This document shows, in pieces, positions 49,063 to 52,520 of a DNA stretch of 55,178 nucleotides. The stretch lies in the NCBI GenBank assembly GCA_024278835.1, contig JAJRSK010000001.1, forward strand, positions 1 to 55,178, in the 5' to 3' direction. Source of the DNA: Campylobacterales bacterium (lineage in GTDB: Bacteria; Campylobacterota; Campylobacteria; Campylobacterales; QNZT01). Within the stretch, counting starts at the first letter, position 1, and each line of letters opens with the position of its first letter. Made by a program: the position numbers and the translations under genes. Under the pieces are notes generated by a model. That model was not told the DNA's origin, made no database searches, and worked only from the letters and a program-made list of their open reading frames with translations.

Positions 49063-49515
49063 TCATGTTGTATGTTGGAAGTATAACATAATTTGTGGGA
49101 TAGCTGATGGAGGTATAAAAGATTTTATCATGATATACTGTTCCCCTAATTTTAATCGTTTCATCTTTTTATTGCGGTAAAGGGGCATCAATTTATTGAT
49201 AGCGCTATTTAATTGTGCAATAGAGTAAAAAGTAGTATGGCGAAGCCTTGCTAGTATCCATCGTTGCATTAGTTTGACACCATTTTCTACCAAACTCTTG
49301 TCTTGAGGTTTATATCCCCGTGCTGGCATAATAGCTGTGCCATAATGTTCTGCTAATTTGACATAATCTGGGTTTAAATCAGGTTCATAACGATCTGCTC
49401 TAGTCACCGCACTTTTTAAGTTATCAGGTACTAGTAGTTCTGGTACACCACCAAAGGCTTTAAACATCTCATTATGCGCATAGATGAAGTCTTCTTTTTT
49501 CTGAGAAGCAACAGC
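49063..49515 (-). pseudogene. IS21-type transposase (IstA) C-terminal fragment
   Basis: The remnant reads 'SQKKEDFIYAHNEMFKAFGGVPE', 'LLVPDNLKSAVTRADRYEPDL', 'YGTAIMPARGYKPQDKSLVENG' and 'RWILARLRHTTFYSIAQLN' (in parts), which is the C-terminal half of the IS21 transposase including the last catalytic Glu. Its 5' part is missing: the sequence is cut at 49515, where the ISL3-type terminal repeat begins. The expected IstB partner is absent. A TATCATGATA copy lies near its 3' end (49126). Confidence 0.82.
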
Positions 49516-49542
49516 GGCTCTTCGTAAAGTAGTGGACTTTTC
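49516..49542 (+). repeat. left terminal inverted repeat of the ISL3-type element
   Basis: It starts GGCTCTTCGTA and ends GACTTTTC. It matches the right end at 21 of 27 positions when that end is read on the minus strand. Confidence 0.8.
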
Positions 49543-49547
49543 TGTTT

Positions 49548-49583
49548 AAGTCTATTAATTACTATTCGTATTTTAATAGACTT
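49548..49583. promoter_or_regulatory. palindromic operator before the Fic gene
   Basis: AAGTCTATTAA (49548-49558) and TTAATAGACTT (49573-49583) are perfect 11-bp inverted repeats, 14 bases apart. They lie just inside the left terminal repeat and upstream of the -10 box TATAAT at 49600-49605, a typical place for a dimeric repressor. No repressor gene is recognisable in the element, so the Fic protein, the small protein or a host factor would have to bind. Confidence 0.6.
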
Positions 49584-49631
49584 TTAAGCTACTTTATCCT
49601 ATAATTATCTTAACAATAAAAAGGTAAATCT

Positions 49632-50351
49632 ATGAAACTAAACAGTCAAGAAATTAATCAGATTGATACAAGTAAACTTTCAATCTTTAAATCTAATGAA
49701 GAGTTGGCTTTTTATCTCGCAAAAAAAGATAAAATTGATTTTGTTTATAATACCTCTGCACTAGAGGGTAATGCCATGACATACCCTGAAGTACAAACTC
49801 TTTTAGAGGGTGTAACAGTAGGTGGACATAAACTAAGTGATGAACAACAAGTACTTAATCAGAATAAAAGTGTTGATTACCTATTTGAACTTATAGAAAA
49901 TAAATCATTTAATCTTGATATAAATATATTTACTGCATTACACGCTTATGTAGCCAAGGAAGAAGCCTTAAAATGGGGAGTATTTAGAGAGGGTTCAGTA
50001 AACATAGGAGGTACTGATTATGAAGTACCTCATGCAGATACACTTAAAGATATTTTTATTGCAGGGATAGAAGAGATTAAAAAGATACATCATCCAATAG
50101 TAAGAGCTATCACTATGTTTCTTTTTGGTGCAAAATGTCAATTCTTTTATGATGGCAATAAAAGAACATCAAGACTTATGATGAATGGTATTCTTATTGA
50201 GGGAGGTTATCCTATTTTAAATATCAAAGCTAAGGACAGATTGGAATTTAACAATATGATGGTTAAATTTTATGATAGGGATGATATTACACCAAGCATT
50301 GAGTATTTGATAGAATATTATGTTATGCAGAATATGAAGTTTGGGATGTAA
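49632..50351 (+). CDS. Fic-domain protein with Gln at the catalytic His position
   Basis: Fic enzymes transfer AMP or related groups to proteins. The 239-residue product has an N-terminal inhibitory-type motif 'TSALEGN' (residues 41-47, the S/TxxxEG/N pattern) and a Fic core at 170-178 reading QFFYDGNKR, where canonical active sites read HPFxxGNxR. The catalytic His is thus Gln170, while the phosphate-binding GNKR loop is intact. It may be a nucleotide-binding protein without AMPylation activity, or belong to a Fic subfamily with altered chemistry. It lies directly inside the left end of the ISL3-type element and has its own promoter. Confidence 0.85.
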   Translation: MKLNSQEINQIDTSKLSIFKSNEELAFYLAKKDKIDFVYNTSALEGNAMTYPEVQTLLEGVTVGGHKLSDEQQVLNQNKSVDYLFELIENKSFNLDINIFTALHAYVAKEEALKWGVFREGSVNIGGTDYEVPHADTLKDIFIAGIEEIKKIHHPIVRAITMFLFGAKCQFFYDGNKRTSRLMMNGILIEGGYPILNIKAKDRLEFNNMMVKFYDRDDITPSIEYLIEYYVMQNMKFGM

Positions 50352-50352
50352 A

Positions 50353-50580
50353 ATGAATATTTGTCAAATAGATAAAAATTGCATACATGAGATAAATACA
50401 GTTTCTAAAAGGGTTTCAATTTTCCCATGTAATCCTAATTCTGATGATTTTAAACAGATGAAAGAAATAGTGCGGATTGTACTAATAGGCATAGCCCTTA
50501 TTGTGTTGATGAAAATAATGTTTAAAACAACTGTGCCAATAATGCAAAACGAAGTCAAGACTATCTTAAAGAATAAATAA
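50353..50580 (+). CDS. small membrane protein carried by the ISL3-type element
   Basis: The preferred start is ATG 50353, 1 base after the Fic stop; a TTG at 50341 is also in frame. The 75-residue protein has a Cys-containing polar N-terminus (MNICQIDKNCIHE), then one clear membrane helix ('IVRIVLIGIALIVLMKIMF') and a basic tail. Its stop codon touches the transposase ATG. No family is recognised. The spacing suggests Fic, this protein and the transposase are one operon. Confidence 0.65.
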   Translation: MNICQIDKNCIHEINTVSKRVSIFPCNPNSDDFKQMKEIVRIVLIGIALIVLMKIMFKTTVPIMQNEVKTILKNK

Positions 50581-51924
50581 ATGCCCCTAAACCTACCCTA
50601 CAAACTCCTTAAACAAGAAGAAACAGATTACGATATCTTTTTCCATCTTGAAAGCCTAAAAAAACCAACTCATTGCCTACTATGCAATAGTGAAAATATC
50701 CGAAAAAAAGATAAATTAAAAAACTTCTATTTCGATATCCCCAGTAGAGGTAAAAGAGTAGGACTTACTATCCATGCACAGAGGTACTTCTGTAAATCGT
50801 GTAAAAAGTCCTTTAGAGAAGTACTTCCACAAATCCACACCAAGCACAATATGACAGAAAGACTTGTTAAGTACATCGAGGAGAAATCCCTACAACGTCC
50901 ATTCACACATCTTGCAGAAGAAATTGGATACACAGAGGGAACTATCCGAAAGATATTCAAGTCTCATATTGAGAGTTTGGCTGCACAAAATAAGTTTGAG
51001 ACTCCAACGGTCATGGGGATAGACGAAATCCATCTAGCCAAACGTGCAAGAGCCGTGATAACAAACATTAGTGAAAAAACAATTATAGAAATGTTTAAAG
51101 ACAGGAATAAAACAACCATTGTAAAGTACTTACAAGGCTTAGAGAATAGCCATATTGTGCTAAACGTAGCAATAGATATGTGGAAGCCTTACAAAGATGC
51201 AGTAAACACAATTATGCCTCATTCTGTTGTAGTAATTGATAAGTTTCATGTGGTGAAGTTAGCAAACTCTGCTTTGGAGAAATATCGTAAAGAGTTAAGA
51301 GCTTCACTTAGCAATAAACAAAGAGTTGATTTAAAGAATGATAGATTTTTATTACTCAAGAGAAAGAGTACTTTATCAGATAAAGAGAATTTTATCGTTT
51401 CGTATTGGGAAAATAACTATCCAATTCTAGCTAAGATGTATCTACTCAAAGAAAAGCTCTTTGAGATTTACGAAGCAGACTCAAAAGAAGATGCTTATAC
51501 CAGGTACTCTGAATTTGAAAATCAACTCACGCAAGAAGTAAAACATTATTGGCATGATGTGATTAGAGCAGTAGGGAATTGGCATACAGAAATCTTTGCT
51601 TACTTTGATTATCCTGTAACAAACGCATACACGGAAGCTATGAACAGCGTAATTAGACACGTTGATAGAATGGGTAGGTCTTATTCGTTTGAGACAATAC
51701 GAGCCAAAATGCTTTACACTAAAAGCATTCATAAAACGCAACGTCCTAAAATCAATAAAAGATATGATTTAGGTACTCCAGCTTTTTGTAGAAAAGAAGT
51801 ACCTACTATTGGAAGATCTTTACCTCCTCAAATTGTAGAGGAAAATAAAGTAATTAACTATGGTGTGGATATGGAAAAGTTAGTAAAAGAGATACAAAAA
51901 GGTGCTTTAAGGTTTGATGACTGA
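50581..51924 (+). CDS. ISL3-family transposase
   Basis: The 447-residue DDE transposase has an N-terminal zinc finger ('HCLLCNSENI', 'YFCKSCKKSF') and a helix-turn-helix ('LAEEIGYTEGTIRKIFKSH'). The catalytic core has Asp in 'TPTVMGIDEIHLAKR', Asp in 'SVVVIDKFHVVKLAN' and Glu in 'TNAYTEAMNSVIRHVDRMGR'. The length is normal and no frame break is seen, so it is probably active. The right terminal repeat ends 34 bases after its stop. Confidence 0.94.
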   Translation: MPLNLPYKLLKQEETDYDIFFHLESLKKPTHCLLCNSENIRKKDKLKNFYFDIPSRGKRVGLTIHAQRYFCKSCKKSFREVLPQIHTKHNMTERLVKYIEEKSLQRPFTHLAEEIGYTEGTIRKIFKSHIESLAAQNKFETPTVMGIDEIHLAKRARAVITNISEKTIIEMFKDRNKTTIVKYLQGLENSHIVLNVAIDMWKPYKDAVNTIMPHSVVVIDKFHVVKLANSALEKYRKELRASLSNKQRVDLKNDRFLLLKRKSTLSDKENFIVSYWENNYPILAKMYLLKEKLFEIYEADSKEDAYTRYSEFENQLTQEVKHYWHDVIRAVGNWHTEIFAYFDYPVTNAYTEAMNSVIRHVDRMGRSYSFETIRAKMLYTKSIHKTQRPKINKRYDLGTPAFCRKEVPTIGRSLPPQIVEENKVINYGVDMEKLVKEIQKGALRFDD

Positions 51925-51931
51925 TTTATAC

Positions 51932-51958
51932 GAAAAGTCTATGATAATACGAAGAGCC
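51932..51958 (-). repeat. right terminal inverted repeat of the ISL3-type element
   Basis: Read on the minus strand it starts GGCTCTTCGTA and has GACTTTTC at its inner end, like the left repeat. It overlaps the last codons of the truncated Rpn-type gene. Confidence 0.8.
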
Positions 51959-52451
51959 AAATTTTGTTTATATCTGGTCTAAGTCTTAACAGATAGAAAA
52001 GCTTTCTCAGATAATCTTCTCTTTTTTGGTTATCTAAATTTAAAAGTTTCTCTCTAAGTCTCTTAAAAAACTTATCTATATTTTTTATGTTACATAAAAC
52101 TGCTATGATATTATCAGCTATATCATCACTCTCTATGAGGATAGAACAGTCAAACTCTCTTATGTCTCTAACTTCATAATTATATCGTAAATTTTGCTCT
52201 TTTATAAAAGATGGAATTTTTATATCTCTATCTCCGACATATAACACCATCTGTTTTGGAAATTCATCATAACTTTCATATATAAGTGATGCGTATTTTA
52301 ACATTCTCTTTGGCATAAGAGAATCATTTATAGATTGTATCTCCAAGTGAAAAAGTGTATCATCTTCTAAACGAGTAAGCAAATCAACTCTTCTCTCTTC
52401 TACTTTTGGAAAACTGGTTTCCAAAACCTCTTTTAACCGTGACACAAACAC
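51939..52451 (-). pseudogene. Rpn-family PD-(D/E)xK nuclease fragment
   Basis: The open frame of 170 residues has 'KVEERRVDLLTRLEDDTLFHLEIQSINDSLMPKRMLKYA' (in parts), whose D...ExQ spacing is the nuclease motif of the recombination-promoting Rpn/PDDEXK family. The N-terminus (GTG start, 'MFVSRLKEVLETSFP') begins in mid-domain compared with family members. The C-terminus runs into the right end of the ISL3-type element, where 'RPDINKIWLFVLS' includes element-derived codons. It is therefore probably truncated at both ends. Confidence 0.65.
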
Positions 52452-52474
52452 AATGATATTGGAATAGGCGTAGC

Positions 52475-52520
52475 TCGGACTTTCAGTCCGAAAAGGAACC
52501 TATGCACTTTCAGTGCATAG
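52475..52520. repeat. twin hairpins sharing the apex ACTTTCAGT
   Basis: TCGGACT-TTC-AGTCCGA (52475-52491) and CTATGCACT-TTC-AGTGCATAG (52500-52520) are adjacent perfect hairpins with the same loop and apical bases. The arrangement resembles REP-type paired repeats. They separate the truncated Rpn gene from a toxin remnant. Confidence 0.6.

Follow-up and report, generated by a model that had tools for sequence, protein, structure and literature searches.

An ISL3 transposon with a captured, His-less fic gene behind a doubled left end in a Campylobacterales genome

A cargo-carrying ISL3 transposon was identified in a 55,178-bp stretch of DNA from a Campylobacterales bacterium (hereafter the window). 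Its transposase gene is preceded by a captured fic gene and by a left end bearing two copies of the terminal inverted repeat (TIR). We consider it probable on balance that this account holds as a whole, comprising a complete transposon, a captured fic, a doubled left end, and the mechanism and Fic role proposed below. The element spans 2443 bp (49516-51958), is present once in its own 2.5-Mb genome, and has a G+C content of 32% versus 36.6% for the whole window (Table 1). Three genes run head to tail, encoding the Fic protein, a one-helix membrane protein, and a DDE transposase. The near absence of gaps between them had been predicted exactly: the fic stop codon (50349-50351) is followed by an ATG at 50353, and the stop codon of the small gene (50578-50580) by the transposase ATG at 50581. 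Pfam recovers both Fic (PF02661) and DDE_Tnp_ISL3 (PF01610, E=1e-54), with the transposase also scoring 252 bits against NF033550 (cutoff 180), and an ISL3-type TIR (GGCTCTT/GGGTATC) accompanies this ISL3-type transposase. The TIRs start with GGCTCTTCG, match at 21 of 27 positions with the outer 11 bp identical, and were found at 49516 and 51958, as anticipated. The original prediction of an ISL3 transposon with fic and membrane-protein cargo stood when tested from both ends; its toxin-like option, read as a classic Fic toxin-antitoxin pair, is unsupported, and its generalization about ISL3 cargo proved too narrow. Searches of two overlapping sets of Campylobacterota genomes (199 and 397) turned up no other ISL3 relative, so the element looks like a newcomer.

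Table 1. Features of the ISL3 element and its flanks in the window
Feature	Coordinates	Strand	Details
Left flank, IS21 istA 3' part, interrupted by the element	49063..49515	-	open frame; intact relatives
Left TIR (outer)	49516..49542	+	GGCTCTTCGTAAAGTAGTGGACTTTTC; 21/27 to right TIR; abuts in-frame istA
11-bp inverted repeat (AAGTCTATTAA...TTAATAGACTT), the predicted operator	49548..49583	.	arms 49548-49558 and 49573-49583; right arm in inner TIR copy
Inner TIR copy, direct repeat, putative second transposase site	49560..49585	+	44 bp inside outer TIR; 19/21 to right TIR
Predicted promoter TAGACT-17-TATAAT	49577..49605	+	10/12; -35 in inner TIR, -10 in captured fic segment
Captured fic segment	49593..50344	+	87% DNA identity to free-standing fic locus (G439/L243)
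fic	49632..50351	+	239-aa class-II-like Fic-fold protein; motif QFFYDGNKRTSR; inhibitory motif TSALEGN; Pfam, AF2
75-aa protein gene	50353..50580	+	one predicted transmembrane helix, residues 39-57; hydropathy 2.66
ISL3 DDE transposase gene	50581..51924	+	447 aa; conserved D148, D220, E352
Right TIR (single copy)	51932..51958	-	21/27 to left TIR; no inner copy at right end
Right flank, fragment of an Rpn/PD-(D/E)XK-like gene interrupted by the element	51959..52451	-	relatives ~280 aa

The left boundary finds independent support in the gene that it interrupts. The IS21 istA frame is unbroken up to 49515, the last base before the left TIR, and intact istA relatives (525-528 aa), whose alignment with the fragment begins at its residue 1, extend upstream beyond the junction. 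An open frame to the last base, together with relatives that extend further, identifies the left TIR as a true junction and shows that the element cuts istA in frame. At the broken 5' side of the right-flanking Rpn-like fragment, two adjacent hairpins with a common ACTTTCAGT core (CGGACTTTCAGTCCG and TATGCACTTTCAGTGCATA) lie at 52470-52520 and are possibly a REP-like or IS200-type relic.

No 8-bp target duplication is present at the window copy, where the flanks GCAACAGC and AAATTTTG differ; such duplications, with at least 7 of 8 bases matching, were found at 67 relatives. A target duplication marks insertion at a site, not the make-up of the element itself. Because the two flanks share no duplication, at least one side of the original insertion site has been lost: either one flank was rearranged after insertion or this copy arose by recombination, and the origin of the flanks in two different genes makes later rearrangement likely. 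The lack of a duplication, and with it of any sign of recent mobility, was counted against the preferred explanation. It would also fit an accidental juxtaposition, with fic chromosomal and the left TIR a chance match. To this reading we assign almost no probability, as it is already contradicted by the 11 identical outer bases, by a junction located exactly at the broken istA frame, by an inner TIR copy that makes the left end typical of its clade, and by homology to a free-standing fic that stops inside the element. A chromosomal fic was rejected on these grounds. The arrangement named at the outset as speaking for it, a left end separating the small gene from that for the transposase, was found neither in the window, where no TIR-like sequence lies between these genes, nor in any related element.

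The ends of relatives, which read GGGTATC/GGGTCTT, were located by unbiased pairing rather than with a GGCTCTT anchor. Matching ends and at least 7 of 8 duplicated target bases were found at 67 of 154 loci with a near-complete related transposase. In all 67, cargo of 379 bp to 6.7 kb separates the left end from the transposase gene, a proportion biased by the use of cargo-bearing elements as seeds, which favoured cargo finds. The cargo is usually codirectional with the transposase gene, often stopping within a few tens of bases of its start, and includes mercury-resistance-like, MNT-HepT, AbiEii-like, type I/IIG restriction, methylase, Lar, and Bro-N genes. The premise that an ISL3 element usually has one gene only or brings metal resistance is thus too narrow for this clade, in which restriction-modification (RM), methylase, MNT-HepT, AbiEii-type, and phage-type genes are frequent passengers. 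Nearly identical ISL3 elements with MerR-MerA-like cargo recur in many Firmicutes and in Haemophilus (L026-L059 and L052/L053). On viral contigs (L176-L213), the cargo of ISL3 elements is of phage type (methylases, Lar, Bro-N, and others), and in many cases its start codon lies almost directly after the inner TIR copy.

The doubling of the left end is widespread among these elements. Within the 55-kb window, no position other than the TIRs and the inner copy reaches a 16/21 match to the right TIR. Counting the window's own, 41 of 46 nonredundant elements have an inner copy at the left end (at least 14/20 matches; 0.7% in shuffles), and none of the 46 has one at the right end. Spacings between outer and inner copies fall at 44-46, 55-57, 67, 101-102, and 112 bp, mostly in steps of about one helical turn (~11 bp). 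The palindromic operator predicted just inside the left end does exist as an inverted repeat, but since its right arm lies within the inner TIR copy, it is more simply explained as likely transposase-binding sites overlapping the promoter. The promoter itself appears to be composite, with a -35 box from the transposon and a -10 box from the captured segment. A single scan for promoter-like sites in this region alone does not exceed the shuffle background; across the 46 elements, nine, including both known to carry fic, show a promoter scoring 9/12 or better whose -35 falls within the inner TIR, against 1.25 expected. Overlap between the -35 and the inner TIR is limited to 9-17 of the 46 elements, and both promoter and autorepression are consensus-based assignments. 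In a partial survey of the literature, no description of a doubled left end in ISL3 was found.

The closest homologue of fic, from another Campylobacterales genome (G439/L243), is free-standing, without a transposon, and encodes a protein of 88% identity. DNA identity between the two loci runs from 49593, a short way upstream of the -10 box, to 50344, in the last codons of fic; outside these limits, no significant similarity to the G439/L243 locus was detected. These sequence limits mark fic as captured cargo of Campylobacterota origin, placed between the left-end module and the transposase gene. Comparison of the two copies gave a dN of 0.064, a dS of 0.639, and a dN/dS of 0.099 (~0.10), signifying purifying selection and hence a Fic protein kept functional since the copies split. 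More distant homologues in other Campylobacterales (64-69% identity) have no ISL3 transposase nearby, and several lie directly before hsdR. In four Campylobacterales type I RM loci (L021, L240, L241, and L242), a free-standing His-less fic precedes hsdR by 2-3 bp, in L021 following an AlbA_2/Schlafen-type gene. At L243, the promoter of fic is spanned by a separate palindrome (GGATAAAATATG...CACATTTTATCC), of which only the right half falls within the segment shared with the transposon.

The Fic protein retains the nucleotide-binding loop and the inhibitory Glu without the catalytic base. Its motif QFFYDGNKRTSR carries Gln at the position of the catalytic His and departs from the AMPylase signature HxFx(D/E)GNGRxxR. 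The same substitution occurs in all close homologues, which come from Campylobacterota, Proteobacteria, Actinobacteria, and viral contigs and mostly keep the inhibitory motif and the GNKRxxR loop. The N-terminal inhibitory motif (S/T)xxxE(G/N) is present as TSALEGN, and the AlphaFold (AF2) model (pLDDT 92) predicts a class II, FICD-like fold with FICD as the top structural match. Like this class II protein, the window Fic combines the fold with an N-terminal inhibitory motif and a GNxRxxR loop; unlike FICD, it has Gln for the catalytic His, Phe for the next Pro, and no TPR domain. Replacement of the His removed toxicity in Fic2 and Fic3 of Campylobacter fetus (PMC5651007), so with Gln in its place no AMPylation is expected, and the window Fic probably does not AMPylate.

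These features bear on the idea that fic and the membrane-protein gene form an addiction (toxin-antitoxin, TA) module punishing loss of the element. The tight gene order is compatible with such a pair, relatives have MNT-HepT and AbiEii-like genes at the equivalent place, and C. fetus Fic proteins form TA networks in which the partly degenerate Fic2 is toxic (PMC5651007). We nevertheless find the module unlikely, given the His-to-Gln change in every close homologue, the loss of toxicity that His replacement caused in C. fetus, an inhibitory motif already within Fic, and the absence of the small gene beside fic in the relatives examined. The proposed toxin-like role, taken as a classic Fic TA pair, is accordingly unsupported. 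Nor does the membrane protein qualify as the antitoxin: the 75-aa neighbour has a transmembrane helix and no (S/T)xxxE(G/N) motif, in contrast to a class I FicTA partner, and no plasmid homologue was found at E<1 in the one collection searched.

A second possibility, that Fic serves in anti-phage defence and is carried along by the transposon, draws on the close homologues directly before hsdR in type I RM loci, on others in plasmid methylase/DndB-like neighbourhoods, and on the frequency of RM genes as ISL3 cargo. The protein also matches the PADLOC candidate PDC-S04 weakly (E=3e-13, 47.5 bits), but this model operates at the level of the Fic family and PDC-S04 is only a candidate system. With several homologues far from any defence gene, and members of the same subfamily on viral contigs making counter-defence equally possible, we regard defence as rather doubtful. 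Alternatively, Fic or the membrane protein might regulate transposition, as does TnpR of ISPpu12, the product of a regulatory passenger gene (cited in PMC4133298). Both genes precede tnpA in one apparent operon, and on Piscirickettsia plasmids (L113:3983-5240 and L112) a His-less fic of the same subfamily lies 4 bp before a serine recombinase gene. Relatives with entirely different cargo have nonetheless transposed, as their target duplications attest, and free-standing fic copies lack any transposase, which leaves such a regulator improbable.

Taken together, the neighbourhoods of Fic (type I RM, plasmid defence genes, a serine recombinase, and a zeta-toxin fusion) suggest a part in defence, in counter-defence, or in maintaining mobile DNA, and vary so much that no partner can be named. 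With less confidence than for the promoter scheme set out below, the window Fic would probably be a self-contained nucleotide-binding regulatory, defence, or maintenance protein benefiting mobile DNA. On an Acinetobacter plasmid (L217:280-1782), a single protein joins a zeta-toxin domain to a still more degenerate Fic of this subfamily (motif QFTFEGEKRTAH), and similar matches occur in 96 Acinetobacter plasmid records.

Fic cargo is found in a second ISL3 lineage. Acidovorax pEP1 and Thauera pTX1 (L121, L124) carry a near-identical 4.4-kb ISL3 element whose 99.9% identity ends at the TIRs, and an element of this type also occurs in a metagenome contig of a viral collection. It resembles the window element in that a His-less Fic comes first and the transposase last, the left end is doubled, and the -35 box falls within the inner TIR; it differs in six further annotated cargo genes. 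Its Fic is 42% identical to the window Fic, with the same His-to-Gln change, and its transposase, 43% identical, falls in another part of the transposase tree. Starred branches of this tree, in which deeper branching is only partly resolved, force two origins of Fic cargo, and one origin is obtained in 0% of bootstrap trees. As the tree demands two captures, common descent of both Fic elements was rejected. An ISL3 element in Sulfuricystis (L122:4326-9422), flanked by a perfect 8-bp duplication, retains only a 48-residue remnant of that Fic behind the left end, and next to it a type IIG-like enzyme; here cargo exchange behind the left end is caught midway.

Passenger-carrying ISL3 elements are already known; Fic cargo and the doubled left end appear to be new. 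ISPst2 (PMC6305408), at ~3 kb, likewise belongs to ISL3 and bears two passenger genes, 8-bp duplications, and ends GGGTATCCGG...; its cargo is an ArsR regulator and a permease rather than Fic, and its outer bases are GGGTATC versus GGCTCTTC in the window. ISArsp7 starts GGCTCTTCGCGG (PMC6305408), for comparison with the window TIR start given above. ISPpu12 (PMC4133298, PMC4447125) is an ISL3 element with several passenger genes (lspA-like, czcD-like, and tnpR, a transposition regulator) and differs in cargo identity. TA-carrying Tn3-family transposons similarly place toxin-like genes in the transposition module, at the promoter region that the recombinase binds (Lima-Mendez 2020, PMC7157771); they use another transposase family, their genes lie beside tnpR/res and not behind a doubled TIR, and the window Fic is not an established toxin.

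In the explanation that we prefer, the window element is a complete ISL3 transposon of the ISPst2/ISPpu12 kind, with captured fic set between the transposase gene and a left-end module made up of the outer TIR and its inner copy. A single promoter, formed by the -35 in the inner TIR and the -10 of the captured gene, would transcribe fic, the membrane-protein gene, and tnpA. Binding of transposase to the inner TIR would repress this promoter, tying cargo expression to the transposase level, and the asymmetric two-site left end may aid assembly of the transposition complex. Extending this to the family is a more tentative step, for which we hold somewhat less than even confidence: cargo-carrying ISL3 elements may share a hitherto unrecognised left-end module in which two TIR copies are set in helical phase and the inner one also forms part of the promoter, bringing any gene placed behind it under transposase autocontrol, and His-less Fic may represent a non-AMPylating mobile-element family recruited at least twice.

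Boundaries resolved to the base reveal how a simple transposon takes in a gene. They suggest a design rule, in which a second TIR copy would provide a regulated landing slot, that is testable in many bacteria and phages, and they draw attention to a widespread His-less Fic subfamily under purifying selection.
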